From Microbacterium sp. cx-55 (GTDB lineage: Bacteria > Actinomycetota > Actinomycetes > Actinomycetales > Microbacteriaceae), in the NCBI RefSeq assembly GCF_021117345.1, contig NZ_CP088261.1:434001-498000 (forward strand): a stretch of 64,000 nt of DNA, written 5' to 3'. Made by a program: the position numbers and the translations under genes. Below are positions 2,553 to 31,181 of this stretch, one piece after another; within the stretch, counting starts at the first letter, position 1; each line of letters begins with the position of its first letter. Below the pieces are notes generated by a model. That model was not told the DNA's origin and searched no databases. It worked only from the letters and a program-made list of their open reading frames with translations.

Positions 2553-3185
2553 ATGCCGGTGCGTACCCCCGATCCCGACCCGAACGAGCCCGAAGACGAC
2601 GGCGGCGCCGCGCGCGATCCGCTCGGACTCGGTGAGAACGCCGGCGGTTCGCTGCCCGGCAGCGCCTCGAACCCCGCGTGGCTGAGCGATATCGAGCTCG
2701 CCGAGATGCGTCGGCGGTTGCCGATCGTCTACGTCGAGGCGATCCCGGTGCGCACCGACGGCAACGGTGCGGTGACGCAGGTGGGTATCCTGCTGCGCGC
2801 CACCCCGCTCGGTGAGATGACGCGCTCGATCGTGTCGGGCCGGGTGCGGTACGGCGAGACCATCCGCGACGCGCTGTTCCGGCACCTGGAGAACGATCTC
2901 GGTCCGATGGCGTTCCCCCTGCTGCCGCCCTCGCCCACCCCGTTCACGGTCGCGGAGTACTTCCCGATGCCCGGGGTCAGCGCGTTCCACGACGACCGCC
3001 AGCACGCGATCTCGCTCGCGTACATCGTGCCGGTCACGGGCACGTGCGAACCGCGCCAGGATGCGCTCGAAGTGACGTGGATGGAGCCGGAGGAGGCCGC
3101 ATCCGACGCTCTCGCCGCCGAGATGGAGGGCGGTCGCGGCACCCTCGTCCGCCTCGGTCTCGCCTCCGTGGGCGCGCTCCGCTGA
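2553..3185 (+). CDS. Nudix-like protein of the DUF4916 type, degenerate Nudix box
   Basis: A 210-residue protein with a disordered acidic N-terminus (about 35 residues) and a Nudix fold. It resembles the actinobacterial DUF4916 group: LPIVYVEAIPVRTDGNG, VSGRVRYGETIRDALFRHLE and DRQHAISLAYIVPVTG. Read against the Nudix box GX5EX7REUXEEXGU, the first Gly and Glu and the Arg are present, but the REUXEE core reads RHLEND, so the usual catalytic metal-binding glutamates are changed. It may hydrolyse poorly, use different ligands, or only bind nucleotides. Divergent from the esterase gene; no partner gene in the neighbourhood suggests a pathway. Confidence 0.8.
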   Translation: MPVRTPDPDPNEPEDDGGAARDPLGLGENAGGSLPGSASNPAWLSDIELAEMRRRLPIVYVEAIPVRTDGNGAVTQVGILLRATPLGEMTRSIVSGRVRYGETIRDALFRHLENDLGPMAFPLLPPSPTPFTVAEYFPMPGVSAFHDDRQHAISLAYIVPVTGTCEPRQDALEVTWMEPEEAASDALAAEMEGGRGTLVRLGLASVGALR

Positions 3186-3207
3186 CCTCGCTCCGACCCG
3201 CCGAACG

Positions 3208-4278
3208 TCAGGGTGTGCGGGTCTCGCGGGCGATCGCGGCGACGAACGCGTCGACGTCCTGCTCGGTCGTGTCGAACGAGCACATCCACCGCACCTCGCG
3301 GCGGAGCGCATCCCAGTCGTAGAAACGGAAGCTCTCGCGGAGCCGGTCGGCCACGCCCGCCGGCAGTGTCGCGAAGACCCCGTTCGACTGCGTCGGCTGC
3401 GTGAACGTCACGCCCTGCACCGACCCGTCGGCGAGGCCCGCCTCGACCCCCGCGCGGAGGCGCTGCGCCATGGAGTTCGCGTGCCGGGCGTTCTGCAGCC
3501 AGAGGTCGCCCTCGAGCAGCGCCACGAGTTGCGCCGAGAGGAAGCGCATCTTCGACGCGAGCTGCATGTTGAGCTTCCGGAGGTAGGTGAGCCCGGTGGA
3601 TGCCTCCGGGTCGAGCACGACGATCGCCTCGGCGCCGAGTGCACCGTTCTTCGTGCCGCCCAGGCTCAGCACGTCGACGCCCGCGTCACGCGTAAAGGCG
3701 GCCAGCGGAACGTCGAGCGATGCCGCCGCGTTCGCGATTCGCGCACCGTCGAGGTGCAGCCGCATCCCGTGTCCGTGCGCGTGGTCGGCGAGGGCGCGGA
3801 TCTCGTCCGGTGTGTAGACGGTGCCGAGCTCGGTCGACTGCGTGATCGACACGACCAACGGCTGCGCGCGGTGCTCGTCGCCCCATCCCCAGGCCTCGCG
3901 GTCGACGAGTTCGGGCGTCAGCTTGCCGTCCTCCGACGGCACGGTGAGCAGCTTCATCCCGCCGACCCGCTCGGGCGCGCCGCCCTCGTCCACGTTGATG
4001 TGCGCGGTCGCCGCCGCGATCACCGCGCCCCAGCGCGGCAGCATCGACTGGAGACCCGTGACGTTCGCGCCGGTGCCATTGAAGACGGGGGATGCCTCCG
4101 CGCCCGCACCGAAGTGCGCCGTCACGACCTCCTGCAGCCGGGCGGTGTACTCGTCCGCGCCGTACGCGCTCTGGTGTCCGCCGTTCGCGGCCGCGATCGC
4201 GGCGAGGACGTCGGGGTGCACGCCCGAGTAGTTGTCGGACGCGAAGCCGCGGAGCGCAGTGTCATGCAGGGTCGTCAT
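3208..4278 (-). CDS. Low-specificity threonine aldolase (PLP enzyme)
   Basis: Fold-type I PLP enzyme of 356 residues, normal for the beta-eliminating lyase/threonine aldolase family, splitting L-threonine or allo-threonine to glycine and acetaldehyde. Landmarks are the N-terminal FASDNYSGVHP, the PLP-stacking region around ATAHINVDEGG, Asp177 in HLDGARIANAA that contacts the PLP nitrogen, and the Schiff-base Lys210 in LSLGGTKNGALG. The start codon is preceded by TAGGCT and a 6-nt gap, so it is probably leaderless. It converges with the Nudix-like gene, stops 22 nt apart. Exact substrate preference is inferred from the family. Confidence 0.9.
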   Translation of the reverse strand: MTTLHDTALRGFASDNYSGVHPDVLAAIAAANGGHQSAYGADEYTARLQEVVTAHFGAGAEASPVFNGTGANVTGLQSMLPRWGAVIAAATAHINVDEGGAPERVGGMKLLTVPSEDGKLTPELVDREAWGWGDEHRAQPLVVSITQSTELGTVYTPDEIRALADHAHGHGMRLHLDGARIANAAASLDVPLAAFTRDAGVDVLSLGGTKNGALGAEAIVVLDPEASTGLTYLRKLNMQLASKMRFLSAQLVALLEGDLWLQNARHANSMAQRLRAGVEAGLADGSVQGVTFTQPTQSNGVFATLPAGVADRLRESFRFYDWDALRREVRWMCSFDTTEQDVDAFVAAIARETRTP

Positions 4279-4410: not shown

Positions 4411-5865
4411 TCAGTCGGCGCCGCGGATGCCGGCGGTCGACGCGATGACGGGGCGCATCTTCTTCTCCAGCGCCTCGAAGAACATCGACAGCGGGAACTC
4501 GTCCTCGCGGACCGCGTTCGTGAACCCGGACGGCGGACCGGCGAGCACCTCGTCGGGGAGTCCCCGTGCCCACACCGACGCCGGATGCGGCGTCAGCACC
4601 GAGCGCACCAGGTCGTACGCGGCGAGCCAGTGCGCGGTCTTCGGCCGGTCGATCGACTCCCAGTAGAGCCGGTCGATCGCGTCGGCGAGGGCGACGACCG
4701 CATCCGGGATCGCCTCCCAGTCGATCGTGAGACGCGTGTCGGTCCAGTGCAGCACCTCGTGGCGGTGCAGCCACGCGAACAGCAGCTGACCGCCGAGCCC
4801 GTCGTAGTTGCGCACGCGCGAGCCGGTGATCGCGAAGCGGAAGATGCGGTCGAACACCACGGCGTACTGCACGAGCACCGCGTGCTGGAGCATGTCGTGC
4901 TCCACCGCGGTGAGATCGTCGCCGTTATCGACCCGCTCCTGCAGGCGCGTGCGGATGCGGACGCACTCGCGGAACGCCGTCAGGTCGCACCGCAGTTCTT
5001 CCAGTGAGTAGAGGAAGTACGGCATCCGCTGCTTGATCATGAACGGATCGAACGGCAGGTCACCGCGCATGTGCGTGCGGTCGTGGATGATGTCCCACAT
5101 CACGAACGTGCGCTCGGTGAGCGCCTGGTCGGTCAGCATCCGCGCGGCGTCGGCCGGCAGATCGAGTTTCGTGATCTCGGATGCGGCCGCCACCACGCGC
5201 CGGTAGCGCGCGGCTTCGCGGTCCTGGAAGATCGCGCCCCACGTGAAGGTCGGCACCTCGCGCATCGCCACGGTCTCCGGGAACAGCACGGCGGAGTTCG
5301 TGTCGTACCCGGGCGTGAAATCGACCAGGCGGAGCGACACGAACAGGCCGTTGGTGTACTCGGTTTCGAGCGCGCCGATGAACTCGGGCCAGATCACTTC
5401 GACGAGCACGGCTTCGACGAATCGATTGCTCGAGCCGTTCTGCGTGTACATCGGGAAGACGACCAGGTGACGCAGCCCGTCGACGCGGTGCTGCTGCGGC
5501 TGGAAGGCGACGAGAGCGTCGAAGAAGTCGGGAACTCCGAAGCCCTCGGCCGACCAGCGCAGGAGGTCGCCGACCAGTGCGTCGAGGTAGGCGGCATCGT
5601 GCGGGAAGCGCGGAGCGAGCGCACGCACCGAGGCGACGAGCGTGTCGACGTGCCGGCGCGCGGCGGGTCCGTCGTGCTCCTCGGGAACCGATCCGTCGGC
5701 GGCCTGCAGCTGCTGCAGTGCGACGGCGGCGTCCTTGAGAGCGAGCCAGGCCGGATCGTTCTCCACGTCTGCCGCGAGCGCCGGGATGACCTCGTCCTCG
5801 ACGACCTCGGGTTCGCCGACGATGGCCTTCTGCTCGTAGGTGGGGAGCGCGGCTTGGGTAGACAT
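4411..5865 (-). CDS. DUF6421 family protein, function unknown
   Basis: A 484-residue soluble protein that I recognise as the actinobacterial DUF6421 family; no biochemical role is known to me. Conserved-looking blocks include LVVFPMYTQNGSS, LVEVIWPEFIGALE, DFTPGYDTNSAVLFPET, FTWGAIFQDREAARYR, and a His/Asp-rich stretch FVMWDIIHDRTHMRGDLPF followed by DPFMIKQRMPYFLYSLEELR. The His and Asp content of that stretch suggests a metal or nucleotide site, which is only inference. ATG at 5865 has GGAGG 5 nt upstream, and the annotated start excludes a proline/arginine-rich extension that would come from the promoter region. Single gene with its own strong terminator. Confidence 0.72.
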   Translation of the reverse strand: MSTQAALPTYEQKAIVGEPEVVEDEVIPALAADVENDPAWLALKDAAVALQQLQAADGSVPEEHDGPAARRHVDTLVASVRALAPRFPHDAAYLDALVGDLLRWSAEGFGVPDFFDALVAFQPQQHRVDGLRHLVVFPMYTQNGSSNRFVEAVLVEVIWPEFIGALETEYTNGLFVSLRLVDFTPGYDTNSAVLFPETVAMREVPTFTWGAIFQDREAARYRRVVAAASEITKLDLPADAARMLTDQALTERTFVMWDIIHDRTHMRGDLPFDPFMIKQRMPYFLYSLEELRCDLTAFRECVRIRTRLQERVDNGDDLTAVEHDMLQHAVLVQYAVVFDRIFRFAITGSRVRNYDGLGGQLLFAWLHRHEVLHWTDTRLTIDWEAIPDAVVALADAIDRLYWESIDRPKTAHWLAAYDLVRSVLTPHPASVWARGLPDEVLAGPPSGFTNAVREDEFPLSMFFEALEKKMRPVIASTAGIRGAD

Positions 5866-10835: not shown

Positions 10836-10909
10836 ATGTCCCACTATTTGCTGTCCATGTCCCACAATTTGCCGTTCTGACAGCGGCAAAGCGGCAAAAA
10901 GTGGGACAT
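10836..10909. repeat. Tandem 21-bp repeat plus inverted third copy in the operon gap
   Basis: Two 21-bp copies lie head to tail at 10836-10856 and 10857-10877, both beginning ATGTCCCAC, with three differences. A third copy of the core (ATGTCCCACTTTTTGCCG on the minus strand) lies inverted at about 10892-10909. Copies two and three can form a roughly 18-bp hairpin with two mismatches. A GCGGCAAA pair lies between them. The element sits in the only sizeable gap of the operon (10792-10935) and may be an operator, an mRNA-processing hairpin or a small mobile-element footprint. Confidence 0.75.
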
Positions 10910-20046: not shown

Positions 20047-20165
20047 CCGACCCACCCCCTTGTCTCCGACCCACCCCCTTGTCTCCGACCCACCCCCTTG
20101 TCTCCGACCCACCCCCTTTGACCCCGCTCGCTGAGGGGTGGCTCGGCGACAGAGGGGTGGGTCGG
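20047..20165. repeat. Four 19-bp tandem repeats with inverted copies
   Basis: Three identical 19-bp units (20047-20065, 20066-20084, 20085-20103) and a diverged fourth (20104-20122) begin CCGACCCACCCC. Two inverted partial copies follow at 20132-20146 and 20148-20165. The last direct unit and the inverted copies can pair as a hairpin. It is in the 233-bp gap between two minus-strand genes and is extremely C-rich on the plus strand (G-rich on the minus strand), with GGGGGTGGG tracts that could also form G-quadruplex. Confidence 0.8.
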
Positions 20166-28924: not shown

Positions 28925-29536
28925 ATGGCACGCATCGGCGGACGCAACAGCGCCTTGGCCTGGTTCGTCGGTCTCGTGTGCGCGGGCGTTGTCGTCACGC
29001 TCGTGGTGTTGGCGGAACCGGCGATCCCGATGGCTACGCAGCTCGTGGGCGACACGCTCCGGGGTTCTGCCCCCAAGCCCGCGCCGACCCCGACCCGCAC
29101 ACCCGACGCGGTGACCACGTCGACCCCCGAATGCCACGCGCTCTACAGCGAGGCGCTCTGGTCGGAGCTCACCCAGCGCGCCGGCGGAGACCCGGTGCAG
29201 GACGCGTCGCCGCCTGCGGCATCGATCGCGTCGCTCACCACCGCGCTCGCGCCGCAGGTGCGCGTGTCCTGCACGTTCACCGGCACCAACACCGGCCGGA
29301 TCGCGACGACCGTGTCGGACGTCGCGCCGGACGCCGCCGACATCGCGCGTGCCACGCTCGAGGCCGGGGGGTTCGCCTGCGCCGCCTTCGGCGACGGGGT
29401 GCGCTGCGAGCACGACGCGGCGGACGGCGTGGAGGAGCAGACCATCCGTGACGGCGTCTGGATCGCCTCGACCTTCTCGGGCTGGCATCCCTCGCGCTAC
29501 ACCGACCGGATGGTGCGTCAGGTCTGGCCCGACTGA
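28925..29536 (+). CDS. Membrane-anchored secreted hypothetical protein
   Basis: A 203-residue protein with an N-terminal membrane anchor (LAWFVGLVCAGVVVTLVVLA), a Pro/Thr linker and an extracytoplasmic domain with four cysteines. No known family was recognised. The domain matches the lipoprotein at 30594-31175: both carry a Cys near the domain start, a TGR-TT-S segment, a G-C-G-RCE segment and a terminal YTD motif, so the two are paralogues converging on the palindrome array. ATG at 28925 has GGGAGGGG upstream. Confidence 0.75.
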   Translation: MARIGGRNSALAWFVGLVCAGVVVTLVVLAEPAIPMATQLVGDTLRGSAPKPAPTPTRTPDAVTTSTPECHALYSEALWSELTQRAGGDPVQDASPPAASIASLTTALAPQVRVSCTFTGTNTGRIATTVSDVAPDAADIARATLEAGGFACAAFGDGVRCEHDAADGVEEQTIRDGVWIASTFSGWHPSRYTDRMVRQVWPD

Positions 29537-29592
29537 CCCCCCCCGGTCTTCTGCCGCAGCGCCAGGTGCTGGTGGGTGGTGCGTGTTCGTGT

Positions 29593-29716
29593 GGTCACGC
29601 TGCGTGGTGAGCACGCGGCGGTGTCTACTCGCGCTGCGCGATGCACACGCGGCGGTGTCTGGTCGCGCTGAGCGAAGCACGCGGCGGTGTGTGGTCGCGC
29701 TGAGCGATGCACGCGG
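29593..29716. repeat. Tandem repeat of about 34 bp, 3.7 copies
   Basis: Units at 29593-29626, 29627-29660, 29661-29692 and a partial 29693-29716 share CACGCGGCGGTGT and a CGCGCTG-GCGA core. They form the left part of the gene-free repeat region between the paralogous genes. No coding potential is evident. Confidence 0.75.
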
Positions 29717-29842
29717 ACGCGGGCGCATGCCCCCGGCGGCCCTTGCCCGCCTCCCGCCAGTCCCGATGCCAGTACCCGCATCCGCGTGCACCGCTTCGTT
29801 CGCACGTGCAGGCGCCGAGTCTCTCGGAGCTCGTTCCGTCCG

Positions 29843-30464
29843 CTCACGTGTCGCAATCGGTCGGCCGCGCATGCACATTGCGCCACGTGAGCGCGGGTGT
29901 GAGGTGCTCACGTGTCGCAATCGACCGCGTCACGCGACGGGTTGCGTCACTTGAGCACGCATGTGGGCGTCAGCGTTCGCGCGGCCGCGCCCGCGCGCGA
30001 GGAGCTCACGTGTCGCAATCTGTCGCGTACGGATGCGGGTTGCGTCACTTGAGCACGCATGTGGGCGTCAGCGCTCGCGCGGCCGCGCCCGCGTCCGTCC
30101 CTGTGAGCGTGGGCACCCGTCCCCGCGCGCCTGAGGCGCTCACGTGTCGCGATCTGCCGGCTGTGGATGCGGATTGCGCCACGTGAACTCAAGTGTGAGG
30201 TGCTCAAGTGTCGCAATCGACCGCGTCTCGCGACGGATTGCGCCACGTGAGCGAGCCTGTGGGCGTCAGCACTCGCGCAGCCGCGTGAGTGCCCGTGCCC
30301 GAGCCCGTGCCCGAGCCCGAGCCCGTGCCCGTGCCTGCGCGCGCTGTGACGCTCACGTGTCGCGATCTGCCGGCTGTGGATGCGGATTGCGACACGTGAG
30401 GTCGAGCGGGAGGCGCTCAGGTGGCGGAATCGGCTGGGTCGCGCGACGGATTGCGTCACGTGAG
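29843..30464. repeat. Array of seven 49-bp imperfect palindromes in A-B pairs
   Basis: Seven units, each exactly 49 bp, built as a 16-nt left arm (consensus CTCACGTGTCGCAATC), an 18-nt centre and a 15-nt right arm (consensus ATTGCGCCACGTGAG): 29843-29891, 29907-29955, 30005-30053, 30139-30187, 30203-30251, 30352-30400, 30416-30464. Arms pair at 12 to 14 of 15 positions in the units checked. Two centre classes exist. Class A (units 1, 3, 4, 6) is mostly asymmetric; class B (2, 5, 7) ends GCGACGG and in units 2 and 5 has its own small palindrome. A and B units occur as pairs separated by exactly 15 bp three times (113-bp composites). Unit 3 is a lone A followed by the same GTGGGCGTCAGCG tail as unit 2. 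No cas, integrase or transposase gene is nearby. Confidence 0.85.
30289..30336. repeat. Hexanucleotide repeat GTGCCC/GAGCCC, eight copies
   Basis: Eight hexamers in perfect register, alternating GTGCCC and GAGCCC (last copy GTGCCT), between palindrome units 5 and 6. It explains why this inter-unit gap is longer than others. Confidence 0.8.
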
Positions 30465-30584
30465 CGTGCGTGAGTGCGAGCGTGCGGGGCGTGCGTGCGG
30501 GCGTGCGGGCGTGCGGGGCGTGCGTGCGTGAGCGAGCGAGCGAGCGGAGGAGCGAGCGGGAGCGAGCGTGAGTGAGCGGGCACC
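30465..30584. repeat. Low-complexity G-rich simple repeats
   Basis: Runs of CGTGCGTG, GTGCGGGC and GAGCGAGC make up the right end of the repeat region, up to the stop of the lipoprotein gene at 30594. No gene is visible. Confidence 0.75.
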
Positions 30585-30593
30585 CGCGGCGGG

Positions 30594-31175
30594 TCAGCCG
30601 AAGACGGCGGCGATGACGGAGTCGGTGTACCCGCTGGGGGCGAGGTTGCGGTAGCTCGTGTCGATCAGGATGTCGTCACGCCAGAAGAGGGTGCGACCGT
30701 CGGTGACGGGGTACTCCTCGTCGATCCAGGTCTTCTCGCAGCGGGTGCCGCCGTCCGGGGTGTAGCAGGTGTACCCCTCGCTGTCGGCGAGGCCGTTCAG
30801 CAGATCGAGGGCTGGGCCCCGCGCCATCCGCGAGATCGTGGTCGACAGCCGCCCGGTGTCGGTGTCGGGGCGACCCCAGAGGCAGACGAGCGAGCCGTCG
30901 GCCTGCGTGCCGACGTCCGACCCGTACGCGGGGTCGTTCAGGGGCAGATCACCGAATTGGGCGAGCACGGGCTCCGACACGAGCGCGCGGCAGTCGGTCG
31001 GGACGGCGACCGGCGTGGCGGTGGGTGTCGGCGTCGCCGCGGGAGCGGCGGATGCGGTCGCACTCGGCGGAGGAGTGCGCGGAGACGTCGGGCTCGGATC
31101 GGGCGCGCACGCGGTGAGGAGGATCATCGCGAACACGGCGACGGAGCCTGCGACGGCGGTGCGGATGCGGACCAT
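30594..31175 (-). CDS. Lipoprotein, paralogue of the protein at 28925-29536
   Basis: A 193-residue lipoprotein: signal MVRIRTAVAGSVAVFAMILL, lipobox LTAC, then a Pro/Ser/Thr linker and a domain with SLVCLWGRPDTDTGRLSTTI, GYTCYTPDGGTRCEKTW and APSGYTDSVIAAVFG. The cysteine, TGR, RCE and YTD landmarks match the convergent membrane-anchored protein on the other side of the array. Function unknown. ATG at 31175 was chosen because TACCGT lies exactly 6 nt upstream; GTG two codons earlier would overlap that spacing. Confidence 0.78.
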   Translation of the reverse strand: MVRIRTAVAGSVAVFAMILLTACAPDPSPTSPRTPPPSATASAAPAATPTPTATPVAVPTDCRALVSEPVLAQFGDLPLNDPAYGSDVGTQADGSLVCLWGRPDTDTGRLSTTISRMARGPALDLLNGLADSEGYTCYTPDGGTRCEKTWIDEEYPVTDGRTLFWRDDILIDTSYRNLAPSGYTDSVIAAVFG

Positions 31176-31181
31176 GCCCAC

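Follow-up and report, generated by a model that had tools for sequence, protein, structure and literature searches.

RESULTS

We analyzed a 64,000-nucleotide stretch of the Microbacterium sp. cx-55 genome (positions 434001 to 498000 of its single 3,271,299-bp contig; here called the window) that carries an intergenic array of seven palindromes of equal length. The array is probably a cluster of recognition sites of a two-part system, made up of a nuclease gene and a cognate 51-bp palindrome that brackets this gene and is scattered over the genome in 26 clusters. The nuclease gene lies outside the window, 188 kb from the array.

Structure of the array

An initial annotation of this DNA, made from the letters and their open reading frames, had described seven equal-length units of 49 bp (16-nt arm, 18-nt center, 15-nt arm), and alignment of the copies confirmed the seven units and their shared length. 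The size had to be revised, as counting the outermost conserved G and C adds one base at each end and gives a unit of 51 bp, with 17 bp in each arm and 17 bp in the center. The consensus has GCTC at its start. The three pairs with an identical internal gap (units 1-2, 4-5, and 6-7) and the unpaired unit 3 also stood, with the gap corrected from 15 to exactly 13 bp and the composite from 113 to 115 bp. The CACGTG core reported for the arms is common but not universal, since one arm reads CACTTG in units 2 and 3, CAAGTG in unit 5, and CAGGTG in unit 7. The array has the following parts.

29842..29892, + strand: unit 1, 51-bp palindrome
29893..29905, no strand: linker between units 1 and 2, 13 bp
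29906..29956, + strand: unit 2, 51-bp palindrome
30004..30054, + strand: unit 3, 51-bp palindrome, unpaired
30138..30188, + strand: unit 4, 51-bp palindrome
30189..30201, no strand: linker between units 4 and 5, 13 bp
30202..30252, + strand: unit 5, 51-bp palindrome
30351..30401, + strand: unit 6, 51-bp palindrome
30402..30414, no strand: linker between units 6 and 7, 13 bp
30415..30465, + strand: unit 7, 51-bp palindrome

Just ahead of the array, window positions 29592 to 29716 hold about three copies of a 32- to 34-bp repeat that by eye is unlike the units.

Palindromes of fixed length across the genome and the family

A BLAST-type search of the cx-55 genome with the unit returned 106 match rows. 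Scanning the stretches around these matches gave 26 clusters, the array among them, with 102 units, of which 96 were 51 bp, five were 50 bp, and one was 57 bp. When all lengths from 45 to 59 bp were scanned over 21 of these loci, there were 85 matches at 51 bp, 4 at 50 bp, 1 at 57 bp, and none at any other length. The recurrence of the element in 25 further clusters puts the array far beyond chance. Identity between loci of this genome was 85% in the arms, 61% in the inner flanks, and 34% in the 7-bp loop, the last value being the chance level for the loop composition. The length scans and these identities bear out the earlier impression of a constant geometry with variable sequence.

The unit was also present in other Microbacterium genomes and in other genera of the family, with its length held. 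We scanned 100 loci of other genomes, most of them fetched because they bear units, allowing unit lengths of 44 to 71 bp. Their classified intergenic clusters held 168 units: 117 of 51 bp, 29 of 61 bp, 14 of 60 bp, 4 of 50 bp, and one each of 49, 52, 59, and 62 bp. Genome G008 has a variant unit of 53 to 54 bp. An exact pattern that allowed any gap from 6 to 36 bases matched 36 of 198 genomes of the genus, with forward counts totaling 259 versus 1 for the reversed control; among the 79 forward places listed, 60 had a 51-bp span, 6 a 61-bp span, and 13 another span. Across a collection of 84,980 species, a stricter pattern matched 55 stretches, all titled Microbacterium and all 51 bp except three (61, 61, and 50 bp). 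Clear cases in other genera of the family measured 60 to 62 bp (G059, G115, G183, G282, and G206) or 54 bp (G280). The family-wide pattern search matched 14 of 299 genomes, several only at scattered spans resembling chance; the model search of 299 genomes scored 19 candidates per genome.

The gaps between units peaked at 12 to 13 bp (35 of 71 gaps in cx-55, where this is the most frequent gap, and 9 of 72 elsewhere) and at 22 to 23 bp (29 of 72 elsewhere). Across the genus the arms drift, but the unit nearly always measures 50 to 51 or 60 to 62 bp and the most frequent gaps are 12 to 13 or 22 to 23 bp, in steps of about 10 bp or roughly one helical turn. Such steps would fit a protein that has to contact the two sites from the same side of the helix.

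A nuclease gene bracketed by the palindrome

Two clusters of cx-55, at 274135 to 274384 and 275458 to 275758, bracket a single gene at 274497 to 275444, including the stop codon (G000:C1). The gene encodes 315 amino acids if the chosen ATG is right. Its C terminus matched DUF559 above the curated cutoff and REase_MTES_1575 just below its cutoff, and the catalytic domain has a Vsr-type fold. E215, D247, H264, and D274 were invariant in 60 of 60 aligned sequences and may correspond to the conserved E-D-x-H-D residues of EDxHD endonucleases such as I-Bth0305I. The protein joins an AbiEi-like half, which would bind DNA, to a half with the Vsr/homing-endonuclease fold. A search of solved structures with its sequence gave a single weak match (3hrl, E 0.3). 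By eye, the gene has a lipoprotein-like gene and a clpC-like gene as neighbors.

We searched the fetched loci, most of them chosen for containing units, for this gene and found 17 matches, including some duplicate fetches. Nine distinct loci were bracketed by units, 286 to 334 bp before the matched region and 16 to 85 bp after it; these came from Microbacterium and, in the case of G183, from a second genus. At that threshold L095 and L099 had only a downstream unit and L110 had none; other scans placed units ahead of the gene in L095 and to either side of it in L099 (L257) and L110.

Relatives of the nuclease have palindromes of their own

A relative of the nuclease was found at an E value of ≤1e-10 in 56 of 59 genomes of the genus. 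In 30 of the best nuclease loci, cx-55 included, a search for palindromes of any sequence found a matched upstream and downstream pair scoring at least 40.5 in 19. Mismatched upstream and downstream pairs (n = 870) had a median of 31.5, a 99th percentile of 40, and a maximum of 44, and only 1 of 197 control genes reached the threshold. That control gene (L166, positions 2581 to 3255, from G483) lies between two unit clusters. At the 19 passing loci the downstream palindrome starts −3 to 128 nt from the stop codon, and the upstream palindrome in most cases ends no more than about 170 nt from the assumed start. The flanking palindromes differ from locus to locus, except at TGTC-type loci (e.g., G000, G028, and G050).

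Some of these locus-specific palindromes are themselves dispersed. We joined 17 of them and searched 17 genomes, which gave totals from 1 (G045) to 44 (G021), counting both strands and the nuclease locus. Among the matches listed, a genome's own type occurred away from its nuclease locus at 17 places in G021, 16 in G032, 11 in G024, 9 in G049, 2 each in G052 and G013, and 1 each in G042, G056, and G035. The palindrome of the locus is therefore found elsewhere in at least 9 of the 17 genomes and, among the matches listed, at nine or more places in 4 of them. G052 carries seven listed G049-type palindromes besides the palindrome of its own nuclease and TGTC-type units. Nuclease and palindrome also co-occur: in a set of 59 genomes, with cx-55 left out, the 17 with matches in the R1 element search had closer relatives of the nuclease than the 41 without (P = 2e-6).

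A second nuclease in cx-55 followed the same arrangement. This relative, 35% identical and located at 1083260 to 1083976, is bracketed by its own palindrome with a score of 47, as the pairing predicted. A scan of 316,522 bp of cx-55 DNA found four further copies of the second palindrome, in each case 53 bp nested within 74 bp. The copy in the window and those at L019 and L027 lie between called genes, and the copy at L010 lies inside a called gene.

10836..10909, + strand: palindrome of the second pair, 53 bp nested in 74 bp, with an extra direct-repeat half-site 21 bp away

Location and turnover of the clusters

All gene calls came from our own codon-usage caller and have approximate start positions. 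The array lies between two convergent called genes whose predicted C termini are similar by eye, so that they are perhaps paralogues.

28925..29536, + strand: left neighbor gene, codon-usage gene call
30594..31181, − strand: right neighbor gene, codon-usage gene call, lipoprotein-like by eye

All 26 clusters of cx-55 lie between called genes, 12 of them convergent, 11 codirectional, and 3 divergent. Together with other genomes, 119 clusters could be classed (23 from cx-55), and these were 58 convergent, 53 codirectional, and 8 divergent; five more overlapped a called gene, and one lay at an edge. Many of the 119 clusters are orthologous and not independent, so the P value of 1.8e-10 for convergent versus divergent is too small, and the ratio itself is the evidence. 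The clusters are mostly located at the 3′ ends of genes. In cx-55, 22 of 26 lie no farther than 1 Mb from dnaA (P = 0.009), which is at the start of the contig. A similar lean toward the origin was seen by eye in G031 and G411.

Some clusters occupy the same intergenic region in different species, and of eight orthologous cluster pairs that we aligned, six differ by whole units. Positional conservation is overstated by these comparisons, as the loci of other genomes, including all eight pairs, were fetched for holding units. Linkers within one cluster are often alike, which indicates that clusters grow by local duplication.

One explanation for these positions is a domesticated binding array, in which the palindromes are bound to the benefit of the host, by the AbiEi-like half or by some other protein, and either separate convergent genes as a roadblock or insulator or help to organize the chromosome; the bracketing of the nuclease gene would then reflect autoregulation. 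The excess of convergent over divergent sites, the lean toward dnaA, the orthologous positions, the units kept by both species in the eight aligned pairs, and the conserved arms with drifting loops would all be expected of such an array. However, the number of units found ranges from none to about 100 among species of one genus; the sensitivity of these counts is limited, and the R1 element search, run in 59 genomes, misses diverged types. Autoregulation accounts for the upstream palindrome but not for the one past the stop codon, and avoidance of promoters would result equally from purifying selection against harmful copies. We consider a domesticated array rather unlikely, though it is the most serious competitor.

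Alternatively, the nuclease gene and its two flanking palindromes may transpose as one unit, with solitary palindromes as remnants or passengers. The close spacing of palindrome and gene at the 19 passing loci is consistent with this, as is the alignment of the G024 nuclease locus with an intergenic region that holds only palindromes in G017 and G466. Against it, the nuclease of cx-55, G050, and G051 is at the same place, ahead of a clpC-like gene (named by eye), so it was inherited in place there, and no readable empty site was found. A mobile gene with palindromic ends is accordingly an unlikely account.

The signal resides in DNA

If the palindromes acted as RNA hairpins, paired positions should change together. 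Within cx-55, only 4 cells were changed on both sides of the stem versus 11.6 in shuffles, so there is no compensatory change. Between genomes both arms do change jointly (114 cells versus 66, a count affected by relatedness), as expected if the recognizer drifts. Mismatches in codirectional clusters, oriented by transcription, were G-U in 133 cases and A-C in 110, with 18 clusters favoring G-U and 11 favoring A-C. A run of at least four T's in the next 8 nt was present at only 9 of 524 unit flanks, and on this ground we rejected an intrinsic terminator. No Rfam family matched the window at its gathering score.

The lack of compensatory change within the genome and of a transcribed-strand bias indicates that the signal resides in DNA, and favors double-stranded DNA as the level at which the site would be read. 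The initial annotation had offered a hairpin RNA and a protein-binding DNA structure side by side; the first finds no support in the covariation, G-U, and U-tail data, and the second is the one favored. A hairpin, bidirectional terminator, or stabilizer of transcript 3′ ends would suit the 3′ location and convergent bias, and its stem would be strong, but length changes by helical turns are unexpected for a loop; together with the results above, this makes an RNA role quite improbable.

Gyrase is conserved between genomes, while the arm sequence varies between them and most nuclease loci have a palindrome of their own. We therefore regard topoisomerase sites as very improbable, even though the position downstream of genes and the roughly 10-bp phasing recall the gyrase sites reported for E. 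coli BIME-2 (PMC6379681). Neutral local duplication agrees with the similar linkers inside a cluster but is ruled out as a full account, since 26 clusters and other species share the unit length despite unrelated centers and linkers.

DISCUSSION

A nuclease and its proposed cognate palindrome

We prefer to read the array as recognition sites of the bracketed nuclease. Subunits of the nuclease, presumably two, would read both inverted arms of the double-stranded DNA from the same side of the helix. The center would thus be free in sequence, but its length would have to keep to about one helical turn (units of 51 or 61 bp), and another pair could dock at a distance of 13 or about 22 bp. Copies whose arms are poor would go unrecognized and decay. 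The remainder would persist or multiply chiefly at the 3′ ends of genes and in convergent intergenic regions, doing the least harm there, as clusters gain and lose whole units. The nuclease is the likeliest candidate for the spreading agent, by a cut or nick followed by repair copying, much like the role proposed for the REP-associated tyrosine transposase (RAYT) of REPINs. From sequence, we infer that the nuclease binds, cleaves, and mobilizes the palindrome.

Several results weigh against this reading. The AbiEi alignment has a high root mean square deviation, and Foldseek alone found nothing for the nuclease at an E value of ≤0.001. Eleven of the 30 nuclease loci did not reach the threshold for bracketing. 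Three of them extend past a contig end, one gene is interrupted by a stop codon, one is G017 (where a consensus search found three units on each side of the nuclease), and six are weak or ambiguous (G019, G051, G031, G008, G020, and G057). For 8 of the 17 genomes, the matches listed include no own-type copy outside the nuclease locus. Eight listed places were of another locus's type, seven being the G049 type in G052 and one the G024 type in G007. The best nuclease match in G045, and likewise in G055, has next to it a palindrome unlike the dispersed TGTC-type units, and in G052, which has TGTC-type units, we found no nuclease bracketed by them. Nuclease identity and arm similarity were only weakly correlated (Mantel r = 0.199, 41 of 5,000, 19 loci). 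Among 183 cross-species comparisons, mostly of loci fetched for holding units, 17 sites appeared empty, and the five examined were too diverged, with no readable insertion junction. Finally, the upstream palindrome is near the start codon, so that this side of the bracket could be due to autoregulation.

Comparison with known systems

The initial annotation had suggested, among other possibilities, a REPIN-like mobile element and had proposed a search for nearby RAYT-type genes. The layout agrees with this suggestion: as in RAYT-REPIN and REP/BIME systems, the palindromes are dispersed, often clustered, intergenic, and species specific in sequence, and one cognate nuclease gene is flanked on both sides by the dispersed palindrome. 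The enzyme does not agree. The Y1 (PF01797) profile of RAYT transposases had no match in the cx-55 genome at an E value of ≤0.001, and the same profile matched 5 of 14 named genomes. In place of a Y1 (HUH) transposase there is an AbiEi-like and Vsr-fold enzyme, and the palindrome measures 51 or 61 bp, its center being free in sequence but fixed in length, whereas a REP is some 20 to 37 nt with a GTAG or GTGG head. No such head is present in the unit consensus; REPs with these heads are listed in PMC2817692. Because enzyme and unit form both differ, we keep the element apart from RAYT-REPIN, although it could count as a variant if layout were weighed more.

Unlike I-Bth0305I, an EDxHD homing endonuclease of the Vsr fold, this nuclease is joined to an AbiEi-like half, lies between genes, and has palindromes on both sides; the nuclease loci that we looked at showed no intron or intein, although no search was aimed at these. 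It differs from AbiE type IV toxin-antitoxin systems in having a fused nuclease domain and many genomic sites rather than one operator, and no AbiEii toxin was recognized among its neighbors, which were read by eye only. DUF559/REase_MTES_1575 proteins, which are usually annotated "endonuclease domain-containing," belong to the same protein family. PMC3710099 named the MTES_1575 domain, present in a HEPN fusion protein, as a novel restriction endonuclease of the Vsr family, and in open-license literature on DUF559/MTES_1575, including the available part of that paper, we found no link to palindromic repeats. A term search of the text of the RepRanger paper (PMC12306157) found no Microbacterium. 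Within the open-license literature we found no described family that matches the element or the pairing of nuclease and palindrome, in line with what the initial annotation had stated. The bracketing of many nuclease relatives by palindromes of their own, some of which are also dispersed, suggests a family of nuclease-plus-repeat systems that is new to the literature.

We also put forward, tentatively, a broader proposal: microbacteria may carry a large family of selfish two-part systems in which an AbiEi-like/EDxHD nuclease spreads its own bracketing palindrome of helically fixed length, an independent second solution of the RAYT-REPIN kind whose specificity could be switched at one locus. 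If the pairing of nuclease and palindrome holds, scattered extragenic palindromes would have acquired a nuclease partner independently of the RAYT family, a point relevant to why such repeats are kept by bacteria. In that case DUF559/MTES_1575 genes, which are common and little studied, would often have a predicted DNA target beside them, so that specificity would be directly testable and a natural collection of nuclease-site pairs would be at hand.

Other repeats

In viral sequences, a loose version of the pattern matched 14 contigs with mixed spans. The window also holds a perfect 19-bp tandem repeat of 3.8 copies at 20047 to 20118 (CCGACCCACCCCCTTGTCT). In G398 (L175, about 4840 to 5190) there is an intergenic tandem repeat of the CTCAACTGAGGATTCGAG type with a palindromic core, possibly another family.
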